64,000 nt of DNA. Origin: Gammaproteobacteria bacterium (GTDB lineage: Bacteria; Pseudomonadota; Gammaproteobacteria; Steroidobacterales; Steroidobacteraceae). Positions within the stretch are counted from its first letter, which is position 1. Each line of letters starts with the position of its first letter. Made by a program: the position numbers and the translations under genes. The DNA lies in assembly GCA_021323735.1 (NCBI GenBank), contig JAJPKM010000058.1, positions 1 to 64,000 of the forward strand, read 5' to 3'. The notes beneath the pieces were generated by a model that saw nothing but the letters and a program-made list of their open reading frames with translations, searched no databases and was not told where the DNA came from. Shown piece by piece: positions 7,706-38,283 of this stretch.

Positions 7706-7780
7706 TCCCCGGTAGCTCAGTGGTAGAGCGACGGACTGTTAATCCGTTGGTCGGCGGTTCGAATCCGTCCCGGGGAGCCA
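7706..7780 (+). tRNA. tRNA-Asn (anticodon GTT), CCA encoded
   Basis: Complete cloverleaf: acceptor TCCCCGG/CCGGGGA, D arm GCTC/GAGC, anticodon stem ACGGA/TCCGT with loop CTGTTAA (anticodon GTT, asparagine), T arm GGCGG-TTCGAAT-CCGTC, discriminator G and encoded CCA. Its 3' end is duplicated twice downstream (9234 and 9415), the usual signature of a tRNA gene used as an integration site. Confidence 0.96.
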
Positions 7781-10211: not shown

Positions 10212-10241
10212 AAAAAGCCCCGTTCGAAAAACGAGGCTTTT
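10212..10241 (+). terminator. Intrinsic terminator after the DUF3800 gene
   Basis: AAAAGCC-CGTT pairs with AACG-GGCTTTT around a short GAAAA-type loop (AAAAGCCCCGTTCG... ACGAGGCTTTT), ending in Ts, 8 bases after the DUF3800 stop. This is a classic rho-independent terminator. Confidence 0.8.
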
Positions 10242-10553
10242 GCGACCCTTAGTCCTAGCCGTAGGTTTCCACGGCAAGCACTCCATACGGAGCCGATTCG
10301 GTACTCTGGGGCGACTTGTCGACCCCCATCATCCGCTAGTGCGCAAAAGTGTCAACAATCTAGTTCCGTTTTGTGAACTACATCAATAACTTAGACGCGC
10401 CATTGTTGCAGTGCCAAGCAATGAAATCCCTTATATTTCAAGGGCTAAGAGCATTGGGTGCAAAATAAATTTTACGTATCGCGGGCCGAGTACACTGTCG
10501 CTCACGCGGCAGTAGCAAGCGATTAGAGGCTTAGGGAGTGAAGCCCTGCCCGG
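10242..10553. other. Intergenic stretch without a recognisable gene
   Basis: These 312 bases between the DUF3800 terminator and the nnrU fragment hold no convincing reading frame. They are more AT-rich in the middle (about 10350-10460) than the flanks. The missing 5' part of nnrU would be expected here but is not present in any frame I could read, so this is probably foreign or decayed DNA at the island's right boundary. Confidence 0.5.
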
Positions 10554-23540: not shown

Positions 23541-23579
23541 GCTCCGGCCCATCTTTCTTCGGCTACACGATTGTCGTGC

Positions 23580-24320
23580 ATGCACCGTTCAAATCATCCT
23601 TATGCCGAACTCGTGGAGCAAGCGCATATCGGCTACCTACGTCACAAAGCTGGATTTGTGAGCCCCAAACACTCTGGTTCGTGCCTGCGAATTCTTGTAG
23701 TAGACGACCACGGTATCGTGCGTGAGGGGTTGGCTGCTCTTCTGGAAAGCGACGATGGCATCAGAGTCGTAGGATTTGCTGCAACTGGTGAGGAGGCCAT
23801 TCTGGCAGCACAGCGCCTCAGTCCGGACGTTATCATCATGGATTTGGTACTACCCGACCTCAATGGGATAGAAGCCACCAAGCGTATTCTTCGCTATCTT
23901 CCCGACACCCACATACTGGCGCTCTCGGCTTGCCACACGCCGGATCATGTCGGTCGCGCGTTGCGCGCCGGTGCCATAGGATATGTCTTGAAGTCTGCGG
24001 TGGGCGCCGAGCTGCTCAGCGCGGTCAAAGCTGTGAGCGCGGGTAATCAATACCTCAGCGCCGCAGTCAGCGCTGCCGGGGGCGCTCCTGCGGCGCGGGT
24101 ACCAGTTCCCGACAGCCCCTTTGAAACATTGAGCAGCCGTGAAAACGAGGTTTTGCGGTACATCGTTGCCGGATCCACCAGCGCTGAGATTGCGCAGTTC
24201 TTGTCTCTGTCGCGCAAAACTGTCGACACCTATCGCAGCCGGATAATGGTGAAACTGGGCGTCCCCAATCGTTCGGCCCTGATCCATCTGGCATTGAAAT
24301 ACGATCTGCCAGTCGTGTGA
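23580..24320 (+). CDS. NarL/FixJ-type response regulator with LuxR helix-turn-helix
   Basis: A receiver domain (LRILVVDDHGIVREGLAALL, phospho-acceptor Asp in VIIMDLVLPDLNGIE, Lys in GYVLKSAV) is followed by a GerE/LuxR DNA-binding domain (LSSRENEVLRYIVAGSTSAEIAQFLSLSRKTVDTYRSRIMVKLG). About 246 residues, with an unusual N-terminal lead of some 36 residues before the receiver. The start is uncertain: the ATG at 23580 is chosen, TTG at 23571 is possible, and GTG at 23658 (with GGA upstream) would remove most of the lead. No cognate kinase is adjacent; the hybrid kinase 3 kb upstream could be its partner. Confidence 0.88.
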   Translation: MHRSNHPYAELVEQAHIGYLRHKAGFVSPKHSGSCLRILVVDDHGIVREGLAALLESDDGIRVVGFAATGEEAILAAQRLSPDVIIMDLVLPDLNGIEATKRILRYLPDTHILALSACHTPDHVGRALRAGAIGYVLKSAVGAELLSAVKAVSAGNQYLSAAVSAAGGAPAARVPVPDSPFETLSSRENEVLRYIVAGSTSAEIAQFLSLSRKTVDTYRSRIMVKLGVPNRSALIHLALKYDLPVV

Positions 24321-24459: not shown

Positions 24460-26409
24460 ATGGAAGAGCCCTTGAGGGTCCTGGTGGTCGAACACCGGCA
24501 TGCAGATCAAAAGATCGCAAAGCAGTTACTCACCGACTACAACCTCGATTTCAGCTGGGGAAGCGTCGCCTCAATGCGTGAGTTGCGCTCCGTCTCCCGG
24601 GACTTTGACCCGAACATTGTACTATGTACCGACGACATGTCGGTCACCGCCGGTCACGCGCTGCTTGGCGCGATGAGGCTGCTCTGCCCGAGGGCGCCGG
24701 TCATTCTCGTATCGACCGTGCGCGACATGACTGTGCCTAACACCGGAGATAGAACAGAGCTTTTTCTCAAAAGCGTACGGCAATCGTCCGATCATTGGAT
24801 GCCCGTCCCGGTTGCAGGCTCGACGCCGTCGCGATATCGGCGAGACCCCTCGCCGCGCTGGCGCTTTTCTTCGCTCTTGGAATCGAGCTCCGCGCCGATC
24901 GTGGTTAGCAATGCCGATGGCTGGCTCTCGCTTGCGAATAGCAGTGCGTGCCGCAAACTCAATCGTGCCGGCGAATGCTCGCTCGGTACGCTCTTAGGCG
25001 CACCATCTTCTCAATGCTTGCATGCCCTCCATTGGCTCGACGCCTTACGCGATTCGGATCAAGGTTCCCCGGCACGCAGCACCCGCCCGTACGTGGGATC
25101 CCACCATCTCGTTTACTTCGACGATCGCACGGGCACTCCCACTCCGGTCCACATCAGCGATCTCATCAGCCGTATGAGCACTCACGCACATGCTCGACAT
25201 TCCGCGCTCGCTTTGGTCGCCGTGAACGCGCACCATACCGGAATTCCCATGGCCGAATCGGTTGATGCATTAGGCCAAGGTGCCGCAAGGTCGATTCACT
25301 CTGATTTGCTTTCCGCCGCGACCCGGTATGGTTCGATCGCACCAATATCGGCGGATGACTTCTTACTGCTGTTACCGGAATTGTGCGGCCCGGCGGACGC
25401 GGCCGTAGTCGTCCAAGGTGTACTCGACTCGATCGAGCAGATTCGTCAGGTCGGGCCCGACCATCGCACTCCAGCGATCGAATCGATCAAATCGATCGCG
25501 CCCCCTGGCGCAAGCGGAGCTGAGAAATCCCCGAATCTGCACCCACTTCGATCGCATCCGGTCCAGCGCCGGGCCAAGATGGCCATACAGCTCGATCTGG
25601 AACTTTGCAATGCGCTAAGACGCAACGCGTTGAGCGTGCAATATCAGCCGCAGTACGACTTGCGGACCGGCCGAGGCTGCGGTGTCGAGGCGCTGGCGCG
25701 TTGGGTTCTATCGACCGGTGAGATCATTCCTCCATCGGTCTTTATACCGGTCGCAGAGCGCGCCGGTATGATTCACGATCTGGGCGCATGGGTGCTCCAA
25801 TCCGCTTGCGAAGCGGCCGTTGCTTGGTGCGGCCGGCCCAATCTGGCTGCCACACTGTCGGTCAACGTATCGGCGCTGCAAATAGACAAGAACTTCTGCA
25901 CCTTGATTGGAAGGACTCTCAAGCAATTTGGTTTTCCCGCCAAACAGCTGGAACTGGAAATCACCGAAAGTGCGCTCATCGCAAATACCGAACGCACAAT
26001 CGCGTACATGAACGAATGGAAACGGCTTGGCGTGCGAATTGCGGTGGATGATTTCGGTACCGGGTACTCGAGCTTGAATTACCTTGCCCGGTTACCTGTG
26101 GATCGCCTGAAACTGGATCAGTCGCTTGTTCATATGATGACGCTAAGCCCGAAAGGCGCTGCCGTAATGAGGTCGATCGTTTCACTGGGCGCCGAGCTTG
26201 GAATCGACGTCATCGCGGAGGGAGTAGAGACCGAACAGCAGTTCCAAATGTTGACGGATCTGGGATGCCCCAAGGCACAGGGGCACCTTCTAGGTCGCCC
26301 CATGTCGGCTGATAAGGTACTGGTGGCACTTAGGAAATCGTGGGGAAACCGGCCGGCACGGGAACCCCGACCGACACGATCTGCCATTGGGGAATGCCGT
26401 ACACACTGA
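24460..26409 (+). CDS. EAL-domain cyclic-di-GMP phosphodiesterase with degenerate N-terminal domains
   Basis: A 649-residue cytoplasmic protein. The N-terminus (about 1-115) resembles a receiver, starting LRVLVVEHRHADQKIAKQLL, but lacks the acidic pair and the phospho-acceptor. The middle contains a PAS-like stretch and a vestigial GGDEF-like segment (ISADDFLLLLPEL). The C-terminal EAL domain looks intact: GVEALARW, NVSALQ, LEITESALI, VDDFGTGYSSLNYL, DRLKLDQSLV, IAEGVETEQQ and AQGHLLGRP carry the metal- and substrate-binding residues. It should therefore hydrolyse c-di-GMP. The ATG follows AAGGACAAGGAGCACGCA, a strong ribosome binding site. It converges on the GGDEF/EAL gene at 26561. Confidence 0.9.
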   Translation: MEEPLRVLVVEHRHADQKIAKQLLTDYNLDFSWGSVASMRELRSVSRDFDPNIVLCTDDMSVTAGHALLGAMRLLCPRAPVILVSTVRDMTVPNTGDRTELFLKSVRQSSDHWMPVPVAGSTPSRYRRDPSPRWRFSSLLESSSAPIVVSNADGWLSLANSSACRKLNRAGECSLGTLLGAPSSQCLHALHWLDALRDSDQGSPARSTRPYVGSHHLVYFDDRTGTPTPVHISDLISRMSTHAHARHSALALVAVNAHHTGIPMAESVDALGQGAARSIHSDLLSAATRYGSIAPISADDFLLLLPELCGPADAAVVVQGVLDSIEQIRQVGPDHRTPAIESIKSIAPPGASGAEKSPNLHPLRSHPVQRRAKMAIQLDLELCNALRRNALSVQYQPQYDLRTGRGCGVEALARWVLSTGEIIPPSVFIPVAERAGMIHDLGAWVLQSACEAAVAWCGRPNLAATLSVNVSALQIDKNFCTLIGRTLKQFGFPAKQLELEITESALIANTERTIAYMNEWKRLGVRIAVDDFGTGYSSLNYLARLPVDRLKLDQSLVHMMTLSPKGAAVMRSIVSLGAELGIDVIAEGVETEQQFQMLTDLGCPKAQGHLLGRPMSADKVLVALRKSWGNRPAREPRPTRSAIGECRTH

Positions 26410-26467: not shown

Positions 26468-26709
26468 GCCGTCGACCTCCAACGGACGAATCTTCACGGT
26501 TGGCAACGTCTCCTGCGCGAGCTGATCAGACGGTTCATCGAGCCGTATCCTGATGGTGGGCTAGCCGTCCACCTCCAATGGACGAATCTTCACGGTTGGC
26601 GACGTCTCCTGCGCGAGCTGATCAGACGGTTCATCGAACCGAATGCTGATGGTGGGTGAGCCGTCCACCTCCAATGGACGAATCTTCACGGTTGGCGACG
26701 TCTCCTGCC
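26468..26709. repeat. 96-bp tandem repeat, about 2.5 copies, spanning the 3' end of the GGDEF/EAL gene
   Basis: Near-identical units start at 26468, 26564 and 26660; the last is partial and ends at 26709. On the minus strand the unit encodes QETSPTVKIRPLEVDG followed by SPTISIRFDEPSDQLA (32 residues). The GGDEF/EAL stop codon lies at the junction of the second and first units. There the sequence is TAG where the equivalent codon elsewhere is TCA or TCG, so the leftmost unit is now untranslated. Confidence 0.92.
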
Positions 26710-28981
26710 GAGGCTGGAAGGGCTGGTCGCTGCGCAAAAGCTGCAGCGCGGTCTCGGCCTCGATGGGCTCGCTGAAATAGTAGCCCTGGCCGTAATCGCA
26801 GCCCATCGCCTGGAGAGCCTGCGCTGCTTCCTCGGTCTCTATGATTTCCGCAATTGCCGTCAGATTCAGGCTGCCGGCCATCTGTAGCATCGCAGCCGTC
26901 ATACCGGTGTTGGCCTGATCCGAGGCCATGCGATTCACGAATGGGCGATCGATCTTTACGAAGTCGAATGGAAAGAGCTGTAGATAATTCAATGATGAAT
27001 AACCGGTCCCGAAGTCATCGAGAATCAGTTGGAGTCCCAAGCCATGCAACTGATCGAGAGTCTCGCGCGCCGCACCGACGTTGTTGATGAGCGCAGCCTC
27101 GGTCAGCTCGAACTTGAGCGACGCAGGCGGCAACTGCGTCTCTCGCAGCAACGACGCGACGTATTGGCTCAGGCCGGGATCCCGCAACGCCGCCGGTGAA
27201 AGATTGACGCTGATAAAGAACGGTTGGCTGGCGGGCAAACGCCGCCGCCAATCCTCCGCCACCCTGACCGCCCTGAGGATGATCCAACGGGTGATAGGCA
27301 CCATCAATCCGGTTTCTTCGGCGACGCCTAGAAATCTATCCGGAGCGAGCACGCCTTCCAACGGATGGCGCCAGCGTAGAAGCGCCTCGGCACCCACCAT
27401 CTTGTAGGTCTGAAGATTTACGATGGGCTGAAACAGCAGCTGCAGCTCATGCCTTTCCCTCGCGACGTGCAGGTCCGCCTCCAGGCTCACGAGGTTCGCA
27501 GCCTGCCCGGCCATGTTCGGCGCGTAGCCGAGAATCTTGGCGGTCTCGTGCTGCTTGGCGGCGGATAGTGCGATGTCAGCTTCCCGGACGATATCCTCCG
27601 CGCGCTGCTGGCCCGACTCCACCCACGTGACGCCCATGGTTGCCGAGACGACGAGTCGGTGCCGACGCAAATCGAAGGGCGAGCGCAATTCCTCTTTGAG
27701 AGAGCCTGCAACATTCATGGCGGCTTCACGAGAAGCGATGTCCAGGATCAACACTGCAAACTGGTCACCCCCCCAGCGCGCCAACACGCCCTCGAATGCC
27801 GATGTTATTTTCTCGAAACGGTGCGCCGCCTGAACCATCAACTCATCGCCGGCCGTGTGACCCAGAATGTCATTGATGATTTTGAATCGGACTATATCGA
27901 CGATGATCACCGCGAGGCATTGGCGCCGCTGCTTGCGCAAGTCCCGCAGTGCCCGGTCGAGTTGGTCCATGAAATAGCGCCGGTTCGGCAGTCCCGTGAA
28001 TGCATCATGAAAGCGCGCATGATCGAAGGTTTCCTGCAAATCGAGCCGCTGCTGCATTTCCGCGGCGAGCCGTTGATTGGTCGTGCGCTGGCGCTGCAGC
28101 GCAGCCACCAGCGCCGCGCGTGAGCGTTGCACCTCCTGCGTCAGTTCGTGAGTGCCGAAGGCAAAGAGCCATGCCAGGAATAGCAGCAGGCCGATTTCCG
28201 AGGCGAGCAGCGTGGCGGGAAACCAACCGTCGCGCGGGCGGATTGCCAGCTCCAAGTAACTTCCGGGAATGGCGGCCGCCGCGGGCAGTCGGATCCTTGC
28301 CGCGACGGTGTCCGTCAAGTGCTCCGTACGGGAATTGACGAAGCTGCGCGAGCGGGAGCTATCGGGCTCGACTTGAGACAGCTCGAAGTCGTAACCCATC
28401 TCAGTCAGCCGTCCCAGATGGCTTGCGGCAATCAGCCCGTCCAAGTCCGCGTAGGCAAGCGACCAGCCGGGCAACCGCGGCCCCGCCAAAGGGCTACTTG
28501 CCGTGCTGCTTGCCGTCATCGGAAATCGAACTGCGATGAGCCATTGACTGCCGAGGCGCATCGGACCCAAAACGGCGGCACCCGGTAGAGGGTGAACCGA
28601 ATCCACCGACCGCCATTCGCCTGCAATGCCGTTTGCGCTGGCAGACTCTGCTGGCCTGGAATCCAGCACGTTGTCGTCACTCGTCATCCAGAAGGTCTTG
28701 GCCGCCGCCGGCAGCGAGCCGAGTGAGCCGAGCGTATCCTTTTGTGCGGGTACGGCCGCGGCCAAGGCGGCGCGTCGCTCCGCAAGATCGGCTAGCTTCT
28801 GCAAAAGCGGCTCGATTTGCCCGACGGCGGTGTTCGCGACGCTGGCGGCGGTCTCCCGAGCCACGGCGGCGTCGTGCCGCACGCTCAAGGCGATCATACG
28901 CGACCCCGCGATCAGCACGACCGCTAATACGGCGACCGAGGGCGCCCAACTGAATTGGCGTCGGCGGATCCACGTCATCAC
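26561..28981 (-). CDS. Membrane GGDEF/EAL cyclic-di-GMP enzyme, last gene of the glycan-like operon
   Basis: An 806-residue protein with an N-terminal membrane anchor (about 12-32), a periplasmic sensor region to about 255, a second membrane segment (LLASEIGLLLFLAWLFAFGT), a coiled linker, GGDEF domain and EAL domain. The GGDEF signature reads GGDQF, so cyclase activity is doubtful. The EAL domain keeps GAEALLRW, NLSPAAL, ELTEAALI, LDDFGTGYSSLNYL and FVKIDRPFV, with IAEIIETE replacing the usual IAEGVET; phosphodiesterase activity is likely. The C-terminal tail is made of 32-residue repeats and ends at a probably secondary stop. The ATG overlaps the previous stop, placing it last in the seven-gene operon. 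Confidence 0.92.
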   Translation of the reverse strand: MMTWIRRRQFSWAPSVAVLAVVLIAGSRMIALSVRHDAAVARETAASVANTAVGQIEPLLQKLADLAERRAALAAAVPAQKDTLGSLGSLPAAAKTFWMTSDDNVLDSRPAESASANGIAGEWRSVDSVHPLPGAAVLGPMRLGSQWLIAVRFPMTASSTASSPLAGPRLPGWSLAYADLDGLIAASHLGRLTEMGYDFELSQVEPDSSRSRSFVNSRTEHLTDTVAARIRLPAAAAIPGSYLELAIRPRDGWFPATLLASEIGLLLFLAWLFAFGTHELTQEVQRSRAALVAALQRQRTTNQRLAAEMQQRLDLQETFDHARFHDAFTGLPNRRYFMDQLDRALRDLRKQRRQCLAVIIVDIVRFKIINDILGHTAGDELMVQAAHRFEKITSAFEGVLARWGGDQFAVLILDIASREAAMNVAGSLKEELRSPFDLRRHRLVVSATMGVTWVESGQQRAEDIVREADIALSAAKQHETAKILGYAPNMAGQAANLVSLEADLHVARERHELQLLFQPIVNLQTYKMVGAEALLRWRHPLEGVLAPDRFLGVAEETGLMVPITRWIILRAVRVAEDWRRRLPASQPFFISVNLSPAALRDPGLSQYVASLLRETQLPPASLKFELTEAALINNVGAARETLDQLHGLGLQLILDDFGTGYSSLNYLQLFPFDFVKIDRPFVNRMASDQANTGMTAAMLQMAGSLNLTAIAEIIETEEAAQALQAMGCDYGQGYYFSEPIEAETALQLLRSDQPFQPRQETSPTVKIRPLEVDGSPTISIRFDEPSDQLAQETSPTVKIRPLEVDG

Positions 28982-29799
28982 GTAGGCTTACCGTGGTGAC
29001 CGACGTGAAAAATATAGTTGAGCGTTACAGCGACCCGGTTGCTGCCTGCGAGATCCTGGTAGTCGACGACCAACGTAAGGTCGCCGCGCATGTGCGGCAA
29101 CGGCTTGGTCACACCGACGTAGCCTTCTCTGAGCGATTTTCCGGGCACCACAAACTCCAGCCCCAACACGGTCGGCGAGATCTGGCCAAAAGCTACACCG
29201 GCCAGAAAATTCGCCTTGGTGGTAAACGCGTCGATTCGAGCATACGTGAGATGCGTTCCGAGATTGCCGCTCACCGAGTCTGCGTAGGAGAGCGACGTCA
29301 GAATGTGAGGATTCACCAAGTACGACAGCCCGAGCTTGGGCAGATTCCCGTGCGTGGTTTCAACGTCGAACTGTCGGTCTTCCAGTTGCACGGACAATCG
29401 ATGGAAGTACGTGCCGATTATTCCGACCGCCTCTACCGAATATCTGAAAGCGCGCGGGCCATCGTCACCGGCACCCTCGTGCGCTTCGCCATAGACGCTA
29501 TAGCGCGCATCGCCCACATCACGAGTCAGGGAGCCGTTGACTGAGCCGAACGTCCATTGGGCAGCGGATATCCCCTGATGCTCCACCGCGACTCCCGCAA
29601 GGGTATCGGCATCGAAGCTGTGCAACCACCCGACCGAACCGCCACCGCCGCCATTCGTTCCCGGCAGAGTGGAGCCGTCGACGCTGACTACGATCCGATC
29701 GTCCGAAACTGGGGCCGCGGTTGACTCCGCCGCCACTGCCATGCCCGGCACGAGCCAGCCGGTCGCCACTGCGACAATGGTGAGCCGTGCAAGTCTCAT
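28978..29799 (-). CDS. Secreted beta-rich, outer-membrane-like protein of unknown function
   Basis: A 273-residue protein with signal peptide (MRLARLTIVAVATGWLVPGM, cut near VAA-EST). The mature part alternates polar and hydrophobic residues in short strands (DARYSVYGEAHEG, FRYSVEAVGIIGTYFHRLSVQLED, LGLSYLVNPHILTSLSYADS) and ends in VAVTLNYIFHVG, as in small outer-membrane beta-barrels. A Gly-rich loop (NGGGGGSVGW) lies near residue 50. I do not recognise a named family. It overlaps genes on both sides by four bases (ATGA) within the operon. An outer-membrane channel or lipid-modifying barrel for the operon's product is a reasonable guess. Confidence 0.75.
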   Translation of the reverse strand: MRLARLTIVAVATGWLVPGMAVAAESTAAPVSDDRIVVSVDGSTLPGTNGGGGGSVGWLHSFDADTLAGVAVEHQGISAAQWTFGSVNGSLTRDVGDARYSVYGEAHEGAGDDGPRAFRYSVEAVGIIGTYFHRLSVQLEDRQFDVETTHGNLPKLGLSYLVNPHILTSLSYADSVSGNLGTHLTYARIDAFTTKANFLAGVAFGQISPTVLGLEFVVPGKSLREGYVGVTKPLPHMRGDLTLVVDYQDLAGSNRVAVTLNYIFHVGHHGKPT

Positions 29800-31211
29800 C
29801 GCACCTGCCGCATGGTACCCGTGACCGAGATAGTGTTCATTTCAAGCGTATCGGCCGTGCTCCCGTTCGCTACCGGGAGCACCGACACCGTGAAAATACG
29901 TTCCTGTTCACCCGCCAGCGTGGTTGCGGAACTCGTCACCTGATAGATCCGCTGATCAATTTCTAGGTGCATCTTGCGCCGATTACTCAATCCCGGCTCC
30001 CACCAACCCTGGCCGGAATTGGGTTGAGACAGCAACTGCGCCGCATCCGCTCCGATGTCCGCGCCGGAAAACAGCCACTTGGCAGGCTTGTTGAATGCCA
30101 GTAGACGTCCCCGCCCATCGATCACCAAGGCGGCATATTCAGACGCGTCCAACGCCGATCGCAGGCAGAACTCCTCGGTTCCGTCCTCGATGGTCAAAAG
30201 CGCCAGACGATGTCCCCTGTGCACGACATGCAATACCCGCACCTGTGTCACTCGCAACAGGTCCGCAACGCGGATGACGGTCAGCGGCGCTGCGCCGCCC
30301 GAACCGACGATGAGCTGGTGGACGATGTCGGGATACGAGAAGCACAGTGCTTTGAACAGATTGCGGCCTTCGAGCGGCATTTCTCCGCCGCCGAGATAGG
30401 TGCTCGCCAAGTCGCTGCAGGCGACGATGCGCTGGCTGGCTGGATCGATCAGTAGAGCCGGCAGCGGCAGGCGCTCGATCAGGTCGGACCACAGTTCCTG
30501 CGCGCGCTCCGCCTCGATCCTCGCCAGAGCGGTATGTGCACTCAGCCGCTCGAATACAATGCCGACATATTCAGCCGCCACCGCACAGGCGAACAGCCCG
30601 ATGGAGAAAACCTCGATCAGCACCATCAGAAAACTTGCCGGCGCAGAGAATCCCGGAAAAGACGGTTGCGCGGCCGCGCTTTGATGGCCGAACAACCACG
30701 TGAGCCACGCGTCGCTGCGAAGCAACCCGCTCGCGTACCAACGCAATTCCGGAGCTTGGGCGAGCGCTACGATGAGGACGACGCAGACACTCACCGCCGC
30801 CATGAGATAGGGGTGCCAGCGCGAGAGAAACATTGCGCCAATCACCGGCAGCGCAAATACCGTCAAGAACGCCGGATTTTGCACGGCGCCGACGTGCCGC
30901 CAAATGTAGCCGATCAGGATGACACCGGTCACATCCATCAGGGTCAATAAGTGATCGTGCCATCGGTCGTGCGGCCATGCGCGAGACGAGAGAATGGCAA
31001 ACGCACCTTGAATCCCACCCACGGCAAGCAGACCCCAACTCGCCGCTCCGACGTCCACCTCAAAGCCGTTGGCAATCCAGGGAACACCGGTGGCGATCAG
31101 AATGGCGGCGATGGTCAACAGCCAGATATCGCTCAGCAACGGAATTCGCTGGTTCTCCCAGCGTGGGCGCGATATCAGCTGCGTCCCGTCGGCGTTGGTG
31201 TTCGTTCTCAC
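29796..31211 (-). CDS. Polytopic membrane protein with C-terminal PAS-like domains
   Basis: 471 residues. The first ~215 residues hold about six hydrophobic segments (for example IWLLTIAAILIATGVPWIA, WGLLAVGGIQGAFAILS, FLMVLIEVFSIGLFACAVAA). The second half is soluble with two PAS-like folds, one around LIERLPLPALLIDPASQRIVACSDLASTYLG and one around ALDASEYAALVIDGRGRLLAFNKPAKWLF. No kinase or enzymatic domain follows. A signal-sensing membrane partner, perhaps for the GGDEF/EAL protein two genes downstream, is inferred. It overlaps the genes before and after by four bases. Confidence 0.78.
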   Translation of the reverse strand: MRTNTNADGTQLISRPRWENQRIPLLSDIWLLTIAAILIATGVPWIANGFEVDVGAASWGLLAVGGIQGAFAILSSRAWPHDRWHDHLLTLMDVTGVILIGYIWRHVGAVQNPAFLTVFALPVIGAMFLSRWHPYLMAAVSVCVVLIVALAQAPELRWYASGLLRSDAWLTWLFGHQSAAAQPSFPGFSAPASFLMVLIEVFSIGLFACAVAAEYVGIVFERLSAHTALARIEAERAQELWSDLIERLPLPALLIDPASQRIVACSDLASTYLGGGEMPLEGRNLFKALCFSYPDIVHQLIVGSGGAAPLTVIRVADLLRVTQVRVLHVVHRGHRLALLTIEDGTEEFCLRSALDASEYAALVIDGRGRLLAFNKPAKWLFSGADIGADAAQLLSQPNSGQGWWEPGLSNRRKMHLEIDQRIYQVTSSATTLAGEQERIFTVSVLPVANGSTADTLEMNTISVTGTMRQVR

Positions 31212-32473
31212 TGAGTCACCGTTGGCGCGGCGGGTTGCGCAGCGGCGGTCGTGCTGCTTCCGCCGGCCGGACTGTTGTCGAATTTGTTGTTGTCCAGAAA
31301 CGGCTGCGACTGCAGCTTCTTACCATTGGGTGCCTGGAAATCCTCCACGTGCAATGCCATTGCACGGGCACGCACCACCTGATTGGCTCGCAAGATCGGC
31401 GAGTCGCCGATCACGTCGATGCCATCGAACTTCGGCTCGATGATGGTGTTGCCGGCCGCCGTGCTGGCACCATGGGCGTCCCCGAGCACGAAGGCGAGGC
31501 CGTAGCCACAGTTGTGCAGCCGATTCCCCCTCACCAGCGTGTTGGACGATCCGCGCACCATCACGCCATACGTGGCGATCCCTTCCAACTCGTTGTCATC
31601 GATGATCGCGCCGCGGGCGTTTTCGGCGACGATTCCCATCGATGCCCCGCCATTGATGCGATTTCCCCGGATCACCGCCCCCGCACCTATCAGATGCACG
31701 TCGACTCCGTGGGCATTGATGAAATCGTTGCGCTCCACCAATACCGGAATGTTTCCAGCGACGATTCCGATGCCGTCTTCCGTGAATTTATTATCATGGA
31801 TGGCGATCGCATCATCGTGCGAATCGGGCGCGCCGCGCACGGCCCACAGGCCGGCATCCTTGTTCTGTGTGAACTCGCTGTTGGCGACTGCGGAATTGCG
31901 ACCCGCGGCCGCGAAACGCACGCCGAGTCGGTCCTTGACGAAGTGGTCGCGCTCCAGCAGCGTCTCACCGGCATTTTCGGCCACTTCAACGCCGACCTCG
32001 CACGAAGTAATCGTCGACGCGGAAAGACGAAAGTGCGAGGCGCGCACCAGGATCCCGGCGCTGGAACAGTTGCGAATCACAACGCCTTCGATCGAAGTAT
32101 TCGGCGCCGCGATATCGAGCACCGGTCCGGCGTGAAGCGCCTGCGCATCGATCTCCACCCCGGAGGTGGCTCCCAGGAGCTTCACTCCATGCCCGTTGAC
32201 GAACGCCGGCAGCGCGGTTTCCAGGTTGATCTTGGGAACATCGATGGAAATACTGGTCGGGCCGACTGCGGTCGCCACCACGAACAGGGCCTCCCGCAGA
32301 GTGCCTGGCCCCCGGTCGCCGGCGTTGGTGACATGCACCTGAACTTCGACGGCTTTCCCCGCCACGGGCGATGTCGGTACCCGTTGGTTGCCGCGCCAAT
32401 GGCTCAGTGCGACCACGCCGCCAAGCAAAACGAAAACGACAATGGCTGCTATCAATCGATGTCCCATAGTCAT
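31208..32473 (-). CDS. Exported right-handed parallel beta-helix protein (NosD/pectate-lyase-like fold)
   Basis: 421 residues with an N-terminal membrane anchor or uncleaved signal (HRLIAAIVVFVLLGGVVALS). Successive rungs follow, of the form G-V-x-I-x-x-N, for example IEGVVIRNCSSAGILVRAS, VLVERNDFINAHGVDVHL, VIRGNRINGGASMGIVAEN and TLVRGNRLHNCGYGLAFV. This repeat pattern defines the PbH1/NosD-like beta-helix fold used by polysaccharide lyases, epimerases and copper chaperones. No catalytic residues can be assigned. The ATG at 32473 has GGGGAG upstream and lies 2 bases after the methyltransferase stop. In this context it may modify or bind the exported glycan. Confidence 0.82.
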   Translation of the reverse strand: MTMGHRLIAAIVVFVLLGGVVALSHWRGNQRVPTSPVAGKAVEVQVHVTNAGDRGPGTLREALFVVATAVGPTSISIDVPKINLETALPAFVNGHGVKLLGATSGVEIDAQALHAGPVLDIAAPNTSIEGVVIRNCSSAGILVRASHFRLSASTITSCEVGVEVAENAGETLLERDHFVKDRLGVRFAAAGRNSAVANSEFTQNKDAGLWAVRGAPDSHDDAIAIHDNKFTEDGIGIVAGNIPVLVERNDFINAHGVDVHLIGAGAVIRGNRINGGASMGIVAENARGAIIDDNELEGIATYGVMVRGSSNTLVRGNRLHNCGYGLAFVLGDAHGASTAAGNTIIEPKFDGIDVIGDSPILRANQVVRARAMALHVEDFQAPNGKKLQSQPFLDNNKFDNSPAGGSSTTAAAQPAAPTVTQ

Positions 32474-32475
32474 GC

Positions 32476-33291
32476 TCACACTCCCCGGTTCTTGACTTCC
32501 AGGACAAACACGGCATGCCACGAACGACCCAGCGCGCGGCGCCCGAACAATGCATTGATCGGCAAGGAGAGTGCGGTCGCGAGCGCCAGCAAGCCTAACG
32601 ACAACTTGGCGGGCAGCTTGCGCACGTACGGCAACAGCTGCGTCCTGAAGGGCGCCGGATCAACCCCGGTCAGCGCTCGCAGATCCAGATTACAGTCATG
32701 GATCAAGTCCAGATAGACGTTGCGACGTCGTGCCCTGAACACTGTCGAATTACAACGATCCACCCAGTTGGTCGGCGCCGCCTCGAGCAGCACCATGCGT
32801 GCGCCTGCGGCGAGGTGGGCGGTCATCGCATCCAGGGCGGCGCGCAGTGCCGACGGATCGAGAATGTGCTGCAGGACGGTGACACCCAATACCAGGTCGA
32901 ACCGCTCGCCCACATCGAGAGTCGCCAGATCCCCCACCCGGAAGCGGCAACGTCCGGCCACGCCTTCGGCAGCCGCACGTTGTTGGGCCTGCGCGATCAT
33001 CGTCGGACTCAAATCCACGCCCAACACCTCGGCGCCCCGCGCGGCCAGCAGTCGGCTCCAACGACCGACGCCGCACCCAACATCCAATACGCGGGTTCCG
33101 GCGCCGACCTTCAGCCAGGGTTCGAGCGCCAGCCGTTGCTCCAGGTGAATAGCACGGTTGTAGAATTCGGGCATTCCGTAGGCGCATACCGCCGCCAGCC
33201 CCTCGCCCTGGGCCGCGAATCGCTGGGCACGATCCTCCCAATAAATACTTGGTTGATACAACCCCGGAGCGGGAATTCCTCGGACAGTCAT
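32476..33291 (-). CDS. Class I SAM-dependent methyltransferase
   Basis: A 271-residue protein with motif I VLDVGCGVGRWSRLL, motif II LGVDLSPTMIAQA and post-motif VGDLATLDVGERFDLVLGVTVLQHI, i.e. a Rossmann-fold methyltransferase of the UbiE/Methyltransf_11 kind. The C-terminal 60 residues include a hydrophobic stretch (LSLGLLALATALSLPINALF) that could bring it to the membrane. The substrate is unknown; in this operon a sugar, lipid carrier or the radical SAM product are all possible. The ATG follows the glycosyltransferase stop with no gap (TGAATG). Confidence 0.88.
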   Translation of the reverse strand: MTVRGIPAPGLYQPSIYWEDRAQRFAAQGEGLAAVCAYGMPEFYNRAIHLEQRLALEPWLKVGAGTRVLDVGCGVGRWSRLLAARGAEVLGVDLSPTMIAQAQQRAAAEGVAGRCRFRVGDLATLDVGERFDLVLGVTVLQHILDPSALRAALDAMTAHLAAGARMVLLEAAPTNWVDRCNSTVFRARRRNVYLDLIHDCNLDLRALTGVDPAPFRTQLLPYVRKLPAKLSLGLLALATALSLPINALFGRRALGRSWHAVFVLEVKNRGV

Positions 33292-34719
33292 TCATCCCCA
33301 CCTGTGCCGCGCGACACTCGGTTCCGCGGCGGTTTCATAGTGGTCCTGATAGATGCGGCGTCGAAACAGCCTGAGCGCAAAGAAATTGCCGAAGCCCACG
33401 GTCATCGGCACGATATGGGTTATCGTGTAGCACACGTACAACGGAACGATGGGCGCCGTGTAGGCTCGTTCCGCCTCCGGCACACATGTAAACAGCGCGA
33501 TTGCGCCGAGTGCGAGATAGCTGGTGATCGCAGCCACGAAGTACGCCGGATTGCCGAGGATCCCGTGCGGCACGAAATTATCGAGCAGCAACAGGTCAAG
33601 GCCGCCCAAAAAACTCAGCAGCAGGAGCGCTGCGCTGACCATCTTGACCAGATGAATCGCCAGTCCCATGCCGCCGATATAGATGAGGTAATTGTATGCG
33701 GCGAAAGGCGAGCGGCGGCTGATCCGCAGAACTTCGGGGAAGCGTTCGATGTAGACCTTGATCAGGCCGTGGTACCAGCCGACGCGCTGCGAGAACCAGC
33801 GCCGCAGTGAGCCCGGACCTTCCGTGCTCACCACCAGGCGTCCGTCGTAATAAATGCGTTCACCGTGGCTGAGCAGAATCAGGGCGTTCTCGAGATCCTC
33901 CGCGTAGACGGAGAGCGAATGTTCGTCGAGCGCGCGCGCCAATGCACTACGCCGATAAAAGGACACGCCTGATGTGACGCTGAAGTCTGCGAGGCTCTCA
34001 CGCCCGGCGCCGCACGCCAGTGCGTACTCGAAGGCCTGGAATCGCGCGAGAAATCCATCCGGCTCGATCATGATCCTCGGGCAGACTGCCGCGGCGCCGG
34101 AGCGCTGGAAGTCGCTGACAAACTGATCCAGATCGATGGTGCTGCCCTCGTCGAGTCCGCGTATGCGGATGTCCGGATCGATCACCATGACCGTTTCGAT
34201 ATGCTTCGGTAGGAGCTCGAGCAAGCGGCGCAAGGCGCCAGGTTTACGCCGGTTCACGCCGTCCTCGAAGCATCGCCATCCGGCCTGGCGCAGCCGCAGC
34301 ACGGTATTGTCCGTTGACCCGTCGCTGAGGAGCCACACCCGGTGGCGGTAGGGTCCCAACGCCACCATGAACTCTTCGAGCCGGTCCTCCAGATTGAATA
34401 TGGAGGCGATGATGGCAAATGGCGCCGACGGGACGAGGCGCCTTGCGTCGGGTGGCAGAATGGCGGTGAGATTGATCGAGATGCCGCCGGTGTACCTGCC
34501 ATCATGAATGCCGCCGGCGCCGATCGTGTGACGACGCCGCATGTACCGGCGCAGAGCGAAATCGATCGCGTCCGTGAACACGATGAGATTGGCGACAGCG
34601 AGCACGAAGATCGAGAATCCCGCGCCACGCGCATTGACCACTGACAATACGATCCATCCCGCCAGTAGCACGCATATCGCGAGCGGTGCGAGGAACGACC
34701 ATGCCCGGAGGGGTTTCAC
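33292..34719 (-). CDS. Membrane glycosyltransferase family 2 (cellulose/hyaluronan synthase-like)
   Basis: 475 residues. One or two N-terminal membrane helices (LAPLAICVLLAGWIVLSVV, FSIFVLAVANLIVFTDAI) precede a GT2 catalytic domain with DGS at 133-135, DPD at 181-183, acceptor-site ED at 274-275 and QRVGW at 311-315, a variant of the processive QxxRW box. Several membrane helices follow (about 340-450). This is the layout of a processive or dolichol/lipid-linked beta-glycosyltransferase that polymerises or transfers sugars at the inner membrane. The start overlaps the radical SAM gene by ATGA. No separate PilZ domain is seen, although the operon ends in a c-di-GMP enzyme. Confidence 0.88.
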   Translation of the reverse strand: MKPLRAWSFLAPLAICVLLAGWIVLSVVNARGAGFSIFVLAVANLIVFTDAIDFALRRYMRRRHTIGAGGIHDGRYTGGISINLTAILPPDARRLVPSAPFAIIASIFNLEDRLEEFMVALGPYRHRVWLLSDGSTDNTVLRLRQAGWRCFEDGVNRRKPGALRRLLELLPKHIETVMVIDPDIRIRGLDEGSTIDLDQFVSDFQRSGAAAVCPRIMIEPDGFLARFQAFEYALACGAGRESLADFSVTSGVSFYRRSALARALDEHSLSVYAEDLENALILLSHGERIYYDGRLVVSTEGPGSLRRWFSQRVGWYHGLIKVYIERFPEVLRISRRSPFAAYNYLIYIGGMGLAIHLVKMVSAALLLLSFLGGLDLLLLDNFVPHGILGNPAYFVAAITSYLALGAIALFTCVPEAERAYTAPIVPLYVCYTITHIVPMTVGFGNFFALRLFRRRIYQDHYETAAEPSVARHRWG

Positions 34720-36386
34720 GCCGTCGCGGCGGCAATTGACGCCGCCGCCGGCCGGAGCGCAGGGAGTCGGGCGTGCAACTCCGACCAGACCTCACTCTCA
34801 TCGGCGATAAAATGACCGTGCTCCGCCATGATTGGCAGAGAACTCAAAATCCACAGCAGCGAGCGCAGGCGCGACGGAAGGTGTGCCGTGTGCTCCTGCA
34901 TCTCACCGAGCATCGCGTCGAAGCCGCTTTCGATGCGCAGTATCGCCCCGGTGACGACGGGATCGATCGGCAGCATTTTCACCGGCTGCGGCCATGCGAT
35001 GTCGGTTCCCGCCACACGCTGATTGGCGTAGTACGTTTGCGGCAAGAGACTCGGATCCCGCGCGAACGCCGAACCCGAAAACGGGATTACATACGGGTAC
35101 ATGCCGATCTCGCATCCCGCCCGCAGCCAGCGATACGCCTCTCGCAGGGTTTGCGCCACATCCTCCAGAGCGGAGTGCGGCGAGCTCAGGATGAGATCGA
35201 GGAACGGAGTCACGCCGATCGCCAAGGCCGCGGTGAGCATGGGCTCGATATGACGATGGATCTGCGCCTTGCTGAACTCACCCAGGACTTTCTTCGAAAA
35301 ACTCTCGATGCCGAAGCCCAGCACGCGAAAACCCGCCCGACTCATGGCCGTCAGCCGCTCGGCGGACATGGCATCGATACGATTCGTGCTGATGAATTGC
35401 AGATGCGCCGGAATCCGTCCGCTGTGTTTCGCGGCAACGATTCCCTCGCACAGCGGCAGGATTCGGTGGTCCCGCGTGAAGGTGAAAATGTCGTCCTGGA
35501 AGATGACGGTGCGTACGCGCGGATGCGCCGCGACGATGCGCTCGATCATGGTCAGACATTCGTCCGCTTCGAGGCGCGCTATGGATGCCACACTGCCCTG
35601 CGCCTCGTGCAGAAAATTGGTAGCGGAACAGAAGGTGCAGCCCATCGGGCAATAGTTGAGTGTAATTAGCCGCACCGAGCGGATCTCGGCAAGATGCGCT
35701 TCCCGCGCGGCCTTGCTCGGCAGCGCCCCAATACGATAGGCGGCTTCCAGGCGGTCCCAGTAGGCCGAATACGGCATCTTGGCGTAGGGCGTGCTGAAGA
35801 TTGCATCGCGCAACTCCGCGCGATTCAGCGCACGCTGGGGAAAGGACAGGATATTGCCGTCCTGGTTGCGTACTGCCGTTCCGGCGATTCCGCCCACCGG
35901 CTGACCGGCACGCAGGCGCGCCACCAGCTCCAGCAGCGGCCGTTCACCTTCACCGAGCACAATCAAGTCGAACGGACCGATCTCGAACATCAACTCGGGA
36001 CGAAATGTTGCCTCCATGCCGCCTGCAATGATGAAGGTCTTCGGCATCACTCGGCGCACGATATGCGCAAGTTCCAGATCGAAGCGCAACGTCATCCCAG
36101 TCGTTGAGACACCGACGATGCCCCATGCGCCGCTCCTCAGCTCGCGCTCGAGTGCTCGTTGCGGCGGCTCGCTACTGCAATTCGGATCAAAGACTTTGAC
36201 TTCGACGCCAGCCGATTCGAGCACGCCTGCGAGCCGCCAGACGCCCAAGGGAGGGGCAAGGAAAGTATATTCACCGCAGTGCGGATCGTACGGACCGATC
36301 AAGAGCACTCTGGACGCCGCCGCGGTCGCCACGACTCGGGTCGACCGGTTCTCCAAGAGCTCACTCCCCAAACTCTTAACGTCCAT
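34716..36386 (-). CDS. B12-binding-type radical SAM protein, first gene of the seven-gene operon
   Basis: 556 residues. The N-terminal part (about 25-165) has the cobalamin-binding Rossmann-like arrangement (VLLIGPYDPHCGEYTFLAPPLGVWRLAGVLE, GIVGVSTTGMT, FIIAGGMEAT, LIVLGEGERPL). The radical SAM core carries the 4Fe-4S ligands CPMGCTFC (Cys246, 250, 253) and a long C-terminal domain. Relatives include the HpnP/BchE-like methylases and ring-forming enzymes, so a radical methylation or C-C bond reaction on a lipid or sugar intermediate is plausible, but the substrate is unknown. The ATG at 36386 is used; a TTG nine bases upstream is possible. The stop overlaps the GT2 start. Confidence 0.88.
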   Translation of the reverse strand: MDVKSLGSELLENRSTRVVATAAASRVLLIGPYDPHCGEYTFLAPPLGVWRLAGVLESAGVEVKVFDPNCSSEPPQRALERELRSGAWGIVGVSTTGMTLRFDLELAHIVRRVMPKTFIIAGGMEATFRPELMFEIGPFDLIVLGEGERPLLELVARLRAGQPVGGIAGTAVRNQDGNILSFPQRALNRAELRDAIFSTPYAKMPYSAYWDRLEAAYRIGALPSKAAREAHLAEIRSVRLITLNYCPMGCTFCSATNFLHEAQGSVASIARLEADECLTMIERIVAAHPRVRTVIFQDDIFTFTRDHRILPLCEGIVAAKHSGRIPAHLQFISTNRIDAMSAERLTAMSRAGFRVLGFGIESFSKKVLGEFSKAQIHRHIEPMLTAALAIGVTPFLDLILSSPHSALEDVAQTLREAYRWLRAGCEIGMYPYVIPFSGSAFARDPSLLPQTYYANQRVAGTDIAWPQPVKMLPIDPVVTGAILRIESGFDAMLGEMQEHTAHLPSRLRSLLWILSSLPIMAEHGHFIADESEVWSELHARLPALRPAAASIAAATA

Positions 36387-36781
36387 CAGTGACAATCAAT
36401 TGGCGCCTTGAATTGCGAATTTAATCCCCAGCGCGAATCTAATCCCTCGCGGGGGAATTCTCTTGTGGAAAAAGTGCGCCTCTTGTTGTCGGTGAATCGA
36501 CTACACCGGCAGACTGGATGTTCATCGACGCCGGCCATCGGGTAAATTATGAACTCGCCTCGTCTCGAATCCTCACAGCAAACCAGCCACGGCGCACAAT
36601 CTATTGATTTTACTGAAAGTAGAGGTCTTGAACGTCGACCTCGGCATTGCGCGTGCAACGCCTCGCCGGTCGGGTGCTCGGTTCTCACCTCATCCAACAG
36701 TGTACGATTCACCACCTAACTTGGGCTGTGGAGCTGAAAGATGCCCTCTGCAAGTGTCCATGCATGTGTGGTAAGCGGCGC
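36387..36781. other. Divergent control region between the radical SAM operon and the deacetylase-like cluster
   Basis: These 395 bases separate two outward-reading transcription units and contain no credible coding frame. They are more AT-rich than the flanking genes, especially 36410-36620, as expected for promoters. Candidate elements are too degenerate to name with confidence; I saw no long palindrome. Confidence 0.6.
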
Positions 36782-37567
36782 ATGCACACTATGAACGCGG
36801 ATGCGATGCGCGACAGCTTCGACTATGACACCTACTGGTGGATCATCGAGCGCCTCTCCCGCACCAACCGGCCTTTACGTTTCGCGGACTTGGCCGGTGG
36901 TTTCCCGACGACACCCTTCTTCATTCTGCGACACGATGTCGACTACTCTCCCGCTGCGGCATTGGACCTAGCAGATCAAGAGGCGAGGCGCGGCGTACAT
37001 TCCACATATTTCCTATTACTCAATGGCCTTTACTACAACATGCTCAGTCCCGAACATGCGAGCTTCGGGCGTCGACTGGCCGCAATGGGCCACGAAGTCG
37101 GATTGCACTATGACGTTAAATTTCTTGCGGCGTTTCCCCGGCAACAATGGCGTGATCTGATCCGCATGCAGGCAACCTTGCTCGGCAAACTCAGTGGTAA
37201 GCGCGTGACGGCGATTGCCATGCACCAGCCGGGTCTCAATGGCGAGGATCCGATGCGGCATACCGGGCAGTACATGAACGCCTACGACGATCGATTTTAC
37301 CGCGACATCCCTTACTTTTCGGATTCATGTCGTGCTTGGTGGAATCCCGCGTGGGAAATGCTCACTTCCGGACACACGCCGCCGCGCTTTCAACTGGCAT
37401 TACATCCCATCAATTGGGCCGAGCACGATCGTGATCGCGAGACCATTTTCGAAACCCTGCACAGCAACTTAGCCCAAACCGTCGAATCGGCGGGTGATGA
37501 ACTGCTGCGAAGAATCGCCGAACATCGCGGTGTATTGCAGCACCAGGCCAGAGCGGCAAGGCGCTGA
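36782..37567 (+). CDS. Polysaccharide deacetylase-like (NodB-fold) protein
   Basis: About 261 residues. FFILRHDVDYSPAAALDLADQEARRGVHSTYFLLLN is the NodB motif 1 with the metal-binding DVD pair, and MGHEVGLHYDVKF is motif 2 with the H-x-x-x-D-type ligands. CE4-family enzymes remove acetyl groups from amino sugars; catalytic residues appear present but were not checked structurally. The start is uncertain: ATG at 36782 is used, ATG at 36791 (MNADAMRDSFDYDTYWW) is almost equally good, and no strong ribosome binding site is visible. It overlaps the next gene (TGATG) and diverges from the radical SAM/GT2 operon, supporting a shared glycan pathway. Confidence 0.78.
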   Translation: MHTMNADAMRDSFDYDTYWWIIERLSRTNRPLRFADLAGGFPTTPFFILRHDVDYSPAAALDLADQEARRGVHSTYFLLLNGLYYNMLSPEHASFGRRLAAMGHEVGLHYDVKFLAAFPRQQWRDLIRMQATLLGKLSGKRVTAIAMHQPGLNGEDPMRHTGQYMNAYDDRFYRDIPYFSDSCRAWWNPAWEMLTSGHTPPRFQLALHPINWAEHDRDRETIFETLHSNLAQTVESAGDELLRRIAEHRGVLQHQARAARR

Positions 37568-38283
37568 TGCCTAACGATTCCGATGTCGTGTTTGATGTTC
37601 TTCGATCGCTTTGGGATCTGGCCCCAGAAGATCCGCGGCATCGTTTGTTGCCGCTCGACCGGGCCTCATTGGAGGAATTTCTCCCGCGATTGCGCGAATT
37701 CGTCGCCGCGACGCCGTTCCAGATGAAAGGTACCGTCGACTCGGCCGCTCTGGTACGCGGCAAGATTGTATCGATGGGCGAAGGCAGTGTGATTGAAGCA
37801 GGCGCCGTGATTGACCACTCCTGCCGACTGATACTGGGCGCGCGCAGCGTAGTGCGTGCCGGTGCCGTCTTGCGGCATGAAGTGGCGGTGGGCGACGACT
37901 GCCTGATCGGCGCGCACTGCGAGGTGGTGCGCTCGGTCATTCTGGGTCCGCACAGTTATCTGGGGCATTTCGTCTACATGGGGGATAGCATTGGGGGGCG
38001 CGGCATCATGGTCGCCGGCAACGTGATGATGGCAAACACACTTGTCGAAAAAGGACAGGTGAGCTTGCGCTATCGCGGCGCTCGGGTTCACACGAGCCGT
38101 ACCAATCTGGGCGCCCTGATCGGCGACGGTGTTCGCTTTGGCGCATCCAGCACCTTAAGTCCCGGTTGTATCGTGCTCCCTGGGCTGGCGTTGCCTCCGC
38201 ACGTGGCGCTGTATGGGACAATCGACAGCTCGCGCCGCCGGGGCCTCATGAAGGAATTTGCGCGCGCCTGGGGTGATAAATAG
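37567..38283 (+). CDS. Left-handed beta-helix (hexapeptide-repeat) transferase-like protein
   Basis: 238 residues. After about 55 leading residues comes a run of hexapeptide-type turns: VRGKIVSMGEGSVIEAGAVI, LILGARSVVRAGAVLRHEVAVGDDCLIGAHCEVV, ALIGDGVRFGASSTLSPGCIVLPGLALPP. The pattern is that of the GlmU/LpxA-like C-terminal domain, usually an acyl- or acetyltransferase acting on sugars. No N-terminal nucleotidyltransferase domain is present. It starts inside the stop of the deacetylase-like gene. Together they could add and remove acyl groups on the same glycan; that is inference. Confidence 0.85.
   Translation: MPNDSDVVFDVLRSLWDLAPEDPRHRLLPLDRASLEEFLPRLREFVAATPFQMKGTVDSAALVRGKIVSMGEGSVIEAGAVIDHSCRLILGARSVVRAGAVLRHEVAVGDDCLIGAHCEVVRSVILGPHSYLGHFVYMGDSIGGRGIMVAGNVMMANTLVEKGQVSLRYRGARVHTSRTNLGALIGDGVRFGASSTLSPGCIVLPGLALPPHVALYGTIDSSRRRGLMKEFARAWGDK

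Follow-up and report, generated by a model that had tools for sequence, protein, structure and literature searches.

Gene content and conservation of the locus

The window analysed here is a stretch of 64,000 nucleotides from a draft genome of 4.19 Mb in 58 contigs. It contains seven consecutive genes, which are listed in Table 1 together with a divergent gene pair beside them. The GC content of the operon is 59–63% and that of its flanks 56–60%, calculated in 2-kb windows.

Table 1. Features of the operon and of the adjacent divergent gene pair
Feature	Position	Strand	Remarks
B12-binding radical SAM protein (rSAM)	34716..36386	-	Gene 1; start ATG 36386 or GTG near 36332; open frame to 36395
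Membrane GT2 glycosyltransferase	33292..34719	-	2 N-terminal + 4 C-terminal predicted membrane helices
SAM-dependent class I methyltransferase (MT)	32476..33291	-	Methyltransf_25
Right-handed β-helix protein, N-terminal membrane anchor, probably periplasmic	31208..32473	-	Beta_helix, AlphaFold
Integral membrane protein, ~6 helices + PAS-like C-terminal region	29796..31211	-	Hydropathy; PAS_8 in homologues
Predicted outer-membrane 14-strand β-barrel (OMP)	28978..29799	-	AlphaFold, Foldseek
Membrane GGDEF-EAL protein, degenerate GGDEF (GGDQF), intact EAL site, acidic Thr/Pro tail	26561..28981	-	
Divergent pair: NodB-like protein (weak) + hexapeptide acyltransferase	36647..38283	+	Outside conserved unit; possible local accessory genes

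An earlier note on this DNA had described seven coupled genes on one strand, and all seven open reading frames were found on the minus strand where it placed them. Its reading of the junctions is also confirmed: there are 4-base overlaps at rSAM/GT2, β-helix/PAS, PAS/OMP and OMP/GGDEF-EAL, the GT2 and MT genes abut exactly, and the MT/β-helix gap is 2 bases if ATG 32473 is taken as the start (the longest β-helix frame begins at 32521). The rSAM genes of the relatives start near the position equivalent to 36332. With script-picked start codons, and leaving out the window, cut contigs, misread pairs and pairs more than 1 kb apart, 129 of the 135 scored junctions in the relatives lie within 15 bases of zero, and the tight spacing is therefore not a matter of chance. 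The rSAM/GT2 junction is −4 in 21/21 relatives.

Convergent to the end of the operon is the gene for a second EAL protein (24460–26409, plus strand) with weak receiver and PAS matches, preceded by a frame (23571–24320) that by eye resembles a LuxR-type regulator. The window also holds a DUF3800-IX RNA (10241–10311, minus strand), barely over the Rfam gathering score, and tRNAs at 7706–7777 and 2030–2101.

Recurrence of the genes was followed in a sample of 98 genomes, comprising the window's genome and its relatives. The β-helix query, the rSAM profile and the PAS profile picked out an identical set of 8 genomes: that of the window, 5 of the 22 others in its genus, and 2 others in its family. 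The rSAM and PAS matches lie within the cluster in all eight carriers, the PAS gene being in two pieces in one genome. In the seven other carriers the genes are collinear, with identities of 41–84%, and two contigs stop before the last gene.

A scan with two short peptide patterns taken from the GT2 alignment was run on one genome per species (84,980 species). It matched 82 stretches, from which 26 loci were confirmed; this number is non-exhaustive, and seven of the loci correspond to carriers from the 98-genome search (five from the same genus as the window and two others from the same family). All seven genes are present in the window's order in 18 of the 26 loci, with the last gene cut in some, which is the co-occurrence that the earlier note had suggested looking for. 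Three further loci (L089–L091) have the complete seven with the GT2 gene relocated to the end, and four (L068, L071, L081, L085) are cut by contig ends and consistent with the set. The rSAM gene is present in all 21 full-set loci. The last locus, L086, lies on a short contig and is rearranged, with the GT2 gene followed by GNAT- and DUF2334-like genes on the opposite strand and then by the start of rSAM. It was considered as a contradiction and rejected, the GT2 gene facing the GNAT- and DUF2334-like genes and rSAM being cut by the contig end; the contig has an internal run of N, and the DUF2334 frame is broken.

The named carriers are Steroidobacter gossypii S1-65, Peristeroidobacter soli JW-3, P. 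agariperforans KA5-B (Steroidobacteraceae at NCBI) and S. agaridevorans SA29-B. All others are metagenome-assembled genomes, with Gammaproteobacteria, Proteobacteria (two) or Steroidobacter sp. as record title. The distribution is patchy. Outside the carriers, thin samples, which missed carriers that the 98-genome search later found, showed nothing close: the GT2 profile matched 1/398 genomes of the phylum, GT2 itself matched 2/147 and 1/369 genomes in two further samples, and rSAM matched 1/196 genomes of the order. Twenty plasmid records matched rSAM and one matched GT2, all below 60% identity.

The earlier note had named relatives with scattered genes as evidence that would count against a common system. 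Each of the 98 genomes has either all or none of the three genes searched for, and in the 26 loci the genes stand in a cluster. The seven genes are a real conserved unit. It might be argued that they stay together through common descent within one related group, with no joint function. The carriers do look related (records titled to class are gammaproteobacterial, and two have only Proteobacteria as title), and the loci with GT2 last form one clade with support of 1.00 in a tree of 23 of the 27 loci. However, the cluster holds even where identities drop to 38.5% for the OMP and 44.5% for the PAS protein, its flanks are mostly unrelated, the GT2 gene has moved in L089–L091 and L086 and yet has stayed linked, and the three genes tested are all or none. 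We regard this explanation as very improbable.

The rSAM gene was tried as a lead for finding the system and was rejected. It matched 24/398 genomes of the phylum, the other 23 at no more than 32% identity, and in the loci compared (nine wide rSAM regions included) no β-helix, PAS, OMP or GT2 homologue lies beside it. Near rSAM there are weak methyltransferase matches in L029, L049 and L047 (the last at the same place as L015), and matches of GGDEF type in L046 and L050. Most of the ten neighbours identified in three such regions are genes for sugar metabolism, for TPR/glycosyltransferase proteins or for other radical SAM enzymes. In a genome from another family of the order (G065), a GNAT domain is fused in-frame to the C-terminal half of an operon-like GT2 (L041:9297-11668) and adjoins a DUF2334 gene; this may be a relic, or a separate use, of a GT2-GNAT-DUF2334 block.

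Domains and predicted structures of the seven proteins

The rSAM protein has Pfam matches to B12-binding (59.8 bits, cut-off 32.1) and Radical_SAM (32.2 bits, cut-off 29.5), and the motif CX3CX2C is found in 25 of the 26 rSAM proteins, the exception (L086) being cut by the contig end. With both domains and the motif present, it is predicted to belong to the B12-binding radical SAM class. No cut-off for a named rSAM subfamily in NCBIfam is reached. All eight family members scanned match the HpnJ, HpnR and rSAM_ladder_B12 models, far below cut-off, and the matches include the RiPP maturases ApyD and rSAM_ocin_1; ApyD scores above HpnJ (68.2 of 750 bits, against 40.8 of 577.6 for HpnJ, TIGR03471), both being far below cut-off. 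TIGR04295 (B12_rSAM_oligo) represents the same enzyme class and is matched weakly by two of the eight (best E 2e-4); that this family belongs to oligosaccharide loci is a guess from its name. The methyltransferase is a clear match to Methyltransf_25 (79.5 bits, cut-off 27, E 3e-22) and has motif I, DVGCGxG, in 26/26 proteins.

The GT2 protein is barely above the cut-off for Glyco_trans_2_3 (27.8 bits, cut-off 27). Family-averaged hydropathy gives two N-terminal and four C-terminal membrane segments, and pattern searches find the motifs DPD in 25/27, SVYAED in 24/27 and SDGSTD in 26/27 sequences, so that the protein appears to be of the kind expected in a synthase-dependent exopolysaccharide system, a GT2 that crosses the inner membrane several times and carries DxD and ED motifs. 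The hallmark motif of processive synthases is QxxRW. All 27 sequences read QRVGW in its place, which makes processivity doubtful. At E≤0.01 the only PDB sequence matched by the GT2 profile is hyaluronan synthase 1 (E 1e-4). All eight members scanned match PgaC_IcaA far below its cut-off, and the NCBIfam equivalog scores are far below cut-off for both PgaC (30.4 of 422.3 bits) and NodC (19.8 of 550 bits). The best reading of the sequence is of a HAS/PgaC-like protein with 2+4 membrane helices.

The β-helix protein matches Beta_helix strongly (86.1 bits, cut-off 25.9, E 3e-24), and averaged hydropathy indicates an N-terminal membrane anchor. The AlphaFold model has a pLDDT of 87. Comparison of the model with known structures using VIA-align gave high scores for the alginate epimerases AlgE6 (Z 34.2, rmsd 2.1, 311 aligned), AlgE4 (Z 33.6, rmsd 2.0, 308 aligned) and AlgG (Z 30.5, rmsd 2.5, 296 aligned) and for the lyase RbmB (Z 31.1, rmsd 2.0, 288 aligned). 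Phage tailspike-type proteins (top row Z 34.7, rmsd 2.4, 335 aligned) and NosD (Z 31.2, rmsd 3.7, 311 aligned) score like the epimerases and lyases, and the fold therefore does not discriminate between activities. The catalytic motif of the mannuronan C-5 epimerases AlgG and AlgE is DPHD; although the fold matches these enzymes, DPHD is found in none of 24 β-helix proteins, and DxHD is found in six, including DSHD in the window protein, and is thus not conserved. The window protein reaches 39 of the 300 bits set for NosD (TIGR04247).

No Pfam family matched the OMP, whose identity rests on its AlphaFold model (pLDDT 86). This model has 14 strands, with OmpG as the top Foldseek match; TodX (Z 21.1, rmsd 2.5, 221 aligned), CymA (Z 20.9, rmsd 3.0, 234 aligned) and OmpG (Z 20.7, rmsd 3.1, 223 aligned) are tied. 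A hydrophobic N-terminal segment is seen in averaged hydropathy. On the evidence of the model, the OMP would provide the outer-membrane β-barrel typical of synthase-dependent exopolysaccharide systems. The β-helix, PAS and OMP profiles gave no matches to PDB sequences.

The PAS-like protein of the window has no Pfam match above cut-off. PAS_8 is matched at E≤0.01 by 15 of 24 members of its family, and averaged hydropathy gives about six helices followed by the PAS-like region. No output domain was found in it.

In the last protein both domains are well above cut-off (GGDEF 129.5 bits, cut-off 23.8; EAL 241.7 bits, cut-off 31.3). An active diguanylate cyclase carries GG(D/E)EF with a catalytic Glu. 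This residue is Gln in all 20 proteins read by pattern, L089 reads EGGQL, and the sequences of L066 and L073 stop short of the motif. Of 17 aligned proteins, 16 carry the whole catalytic set of EAL phosphodiesterases (E, N, E, DD, K, E, Q); the exception, L090, has Lys in place of the late Glu. From its sequence, the product of the last gene is less likely to be a cyclase than to be a phosphodiesterase or receptor for c-di-GMP.

The descriptions of the proteins in the earlier note thus stand for the most part. Structure prediction bears out the outer-membrane-like product of the gene at 28978 as a predicted 14-strand barrel, and the exported β-helix product of the gene at 31208 is supported by its Beta_helix match, its anchor and its model. 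The PAS membrane protein holds for the helices and for the homologues, with a weak PAS signal in the window protein itself, and the c-di-GMP enzyme holds for the intact EAL site but not for the degenerate GGDEF half, for which cyclase activity is unlikely.

Some irregular genes were seen. In L089 (6779-9976) the OMP and GGDEF-EAL proteins form one frame of 1065 aa, but the sequence beyond the barrel seems to be scrambled by frame errors and not to be a genuine fusion. In a metagenome locus (L077:6917-7861 and 8350-8979; L064, G960) the genes for the PAS protein and the OMP seem to be interrupted or shifted in frame. Most GGDEF-EAL proteins of the family, including that of the window (26561-28981), end in an acidic tail with motifs of the type T[IVLM]x[ILVMF]P, often DDSPTIxIP. 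There are eight strict copies in L074 (11291-14536) and none in L077, L090 and L091. A Ser/Thr protein kinase gene lies about 260 bases after the GGDEF-EAL gene in L074. Our guess is that the tail is a phospho-threonine docking tail.

Neighbouring genes and proposed function

Apart from the Steroidobacter loci and some close pairs, which have flanking genes in common, the flanks are mostly unrelated. In five of the 26 loci (the Steroidobacter group; cut in L079) a homologous gene just upstream encodes a TPR and β-barrel protein, these domains having been tested in L076 and L078 only. In four of these five it is preceded by an ECF-sigma cluster, tested in L076, where an ECF sigma factor (L076:4853-5446) and a 190-aa protein (L076:5450-6022) come before the TPR-barrel gene and the operon; dedicated regulation in the Steroidobacter loci is possible. 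No TPR or PilZ domain was found by Pfam in the seven window proteins, and a search for the Steroidobacter TPR-barrel in the window's genome, run without a positive control, found none.

Upstream of the operon in L088 is a pair of MBOAT and AlgX-like SGNH genes, which we take to be of the type that O-acetylates alginate. In L086, L089 and L090, GNAT- and DUF2334-like genes adjoin GT2; DUF2334 is presumably deacetylase-like. The matches are below Pfam cut-offs for GNAT in L089 (21.0 of 25 bits) and DUF2334 in L086 (23.0 of 26), and above the cut-off of 26 for DUF2334 in L089 (44.0 bits) and L090 (38.6). The divergent pair of the window was tried as further members of the unit and rejected: with tblastn (E≤1e-3) only the window's own copies were found in the fetched loci. 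Its NodB-like protein matches Polysacc_deac_1 only at E 0.19, and its partner has a Hexapep match. Flanks of other loci were viewed by eye in 20 loci, and the genes tested there are non-glycan (YdjM in L066, a hydrolase in L070, an M48 peptidase in L072 and a kinase in L074). The neighbours differ, with a common theme of glycan modification or export in some loci, which supports a function in glycan synthesis but does not prove it. No cobalamin riboswitch reached the Rfam gathering score upstream of the window operon or anywhere in seven loci, and an alignment of 11 upstream regions gave no trustworthy block that might be a conserved promoter.

On the basis of these observations, we consider it somewhat probable that the operon encodes a single envelope-spanning system for a modified surface or matrix exopolysaccharide. 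The GT2 protein would polymerise a nucleotide sugar at the inner membrane, and in the cytoplasm rSAM and MT would modify this sugar, its carrier or the end of the chain. The anchored β-helix protein would edit the chain in the periplasm as an epimerase or lyase, and the 14-strand barrel would let it out. The six-helix PAS protein may be a sensor or a co-polymerase, and the GGDEF-EAL protein, with a dead cyclase and a live-looking phosphodiesterase, would set or read local c-di-GMP. The unit, its domains, predicted topologies and folds, and active-site residues are as observed above; what is made, from which substrates and in what sequence of steps is what we infer. The chain of functions suggested in the earlier note gains from the glycan genes beside some loci, and it too is inferred.

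The closest working likeness is to the synthase-dependent exopolysaccharide systems Bcs (cellulose), Pga (PNAG), Alg (alginate) and Pel, which have an inner-membrane synthase, a periplasmic modifier (a β-helix in the case of AlgG), an outer-membrane barrel and a link to c-di-GMP. The operon differs from them in having a B12-radical SAM enzyme, a methyltransferase and a PAS-like membrane protein, a 14-strand barrel without TPR, an EAL protein instead of a PilZ-type receptor, and QRVGW. Because QxxRW is absent and no equivalog cut-off is reached, we do not file it as a member of this class. E. coli yaiO-yaiP-yaiS may also resemble it, in the idea of a barrel, a GT2 and a deacetylase. According to a survey of five synthase-dependent polymers, in the part of its text available, the periplasmic and outer-membrane parts evolve faster than the polymerisation parts (PMC7112194), and the identities among the operon relatives suggest a similar pattern.

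A radical SAM enzyme is paired with a GT2 in HpnI/HpnJ/HpnK, of which HpnI and HpnJ tailor hopanoids; we know of no counterpart there of the β-helix, barrel or c-di-GMP proteins. By analogy the operon could make a membrane glycolipid, the GT2 linking a lipid to a single sugar or to a few, rSAM and MT tailoring the sugar or lipid, and the barrel and β-helix placing the product in the outer membrane. QRVGW, the matches of all eight rSAM proteins to HpnJ, HpnR and rSAM_ladder_B12, and the methyltransferase within the unit would all fit. We nevertheless think it unlikely: the Hpn-type matches are far below cut-off, with HpnJ outscored by ApyD, and the β-helix, the barrel, the c-di-GMP protein and, in some loci, the AlgX/MBOAT or TPR-barrel neighbours suit a polymer better. 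The ApyD and rSAM_ocin_1 matches, and the fact that there is a single GT2 among the seven genes, might instead point to a system that builds no polymer and decorates an existing surface structure such as LPS, a protein or a secreted small molecule. None of the seven proteins has a recognised precursor or acceptor domain, however, while the GT2 topology is synthase-like and the barrel is conserved with the unit, so that we give decoration a distinctly small chance.

The earlier note had asked whether the set matches a characterised locus. The best-listed NCBIfam equivalogs for rSAM, GT2 and β-helix are all far below cut-off, and no described system with this gene set appears among the matches listed from titles and abstracts and from the open-licence literature, in the portions of text available. 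In those portions, the word 'radical' is absent from the survey PMC7112194, neither 'radical' nor 'methyltransferase' occurs in a review of c-di-GMP and EPS (PMC8461298), and there is nothing on this locus in PMC5979037 (S. cummioxidans). PMC10599522 was considered as a description of the set and rejected, the radical SAM mentions in the part available being unrelated table rows. Provisionally, then, the unit is undescribed in the open-licence literature searched.

If the exopolysaccharide reading is true, the few synthase-type polysaccharides gain another member, a matrix polymer linked to c-di-GMP. To our knowledge this would be the first synthase-type gene set to include a cobalamin-type radical enzyme, whose presence predicts an unusual sugar or linkage.

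Matrix formation and a possible link to vitamin B12

The polysaccharide reading is open to trial in culturable isolates that visibly make a fibrous matrix. In the parts of the text available, KA5-B (L080) and SA29-B (L083) are described in a 'fibrous polysaccharide matrix', and need Rhizobiales metabolites 'required for regular growth' (PMC4041242, PMC7966939). The words 'vitamin' and 'cobalamin' are absent from the main texts of both papers.

The genomes of the isolates were searched for CbiC. This protein is a marker of corrin-ring synthesis. It was found in none of the four Steroidobacter-group isolates; the window's genome was positive, and the control gave a signal in 7 of 14 genomes. This one marker is thin evidence that the isolates are B12 auxotrophs. 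Taking together the presence of rSAM in all 21 full loci, the CbiC result and the dependence of KA5-B and SA29-B on Rhizobiales, we offer the tentative and rather doubtful proposal that the operon is a novel kind of matrix-polysaccharide machine with an obligatory B12-dependent radical step, so that carriers that do not make B12 could form their matrix only if neighbours, for example Rhizobiales, provided the vitamin. That the Rhizobiales metabolite is B12 is a guess. If it is true, matrix formation would be gated by a shared vitamin, which might explain the need of these soil bacteria for Rhizobiales.

The matrix could be made instead by other enzymes. A cellulose synthase over the CelA cut-off is present in KA5-B and absent from SA29-B, and each of the four isolates has a further GT2-like protein, about 911 aa long, that matches CelA below cut-off; the cellulose synthase of KA5-B or the 911-aa protein could be the matrix maker.
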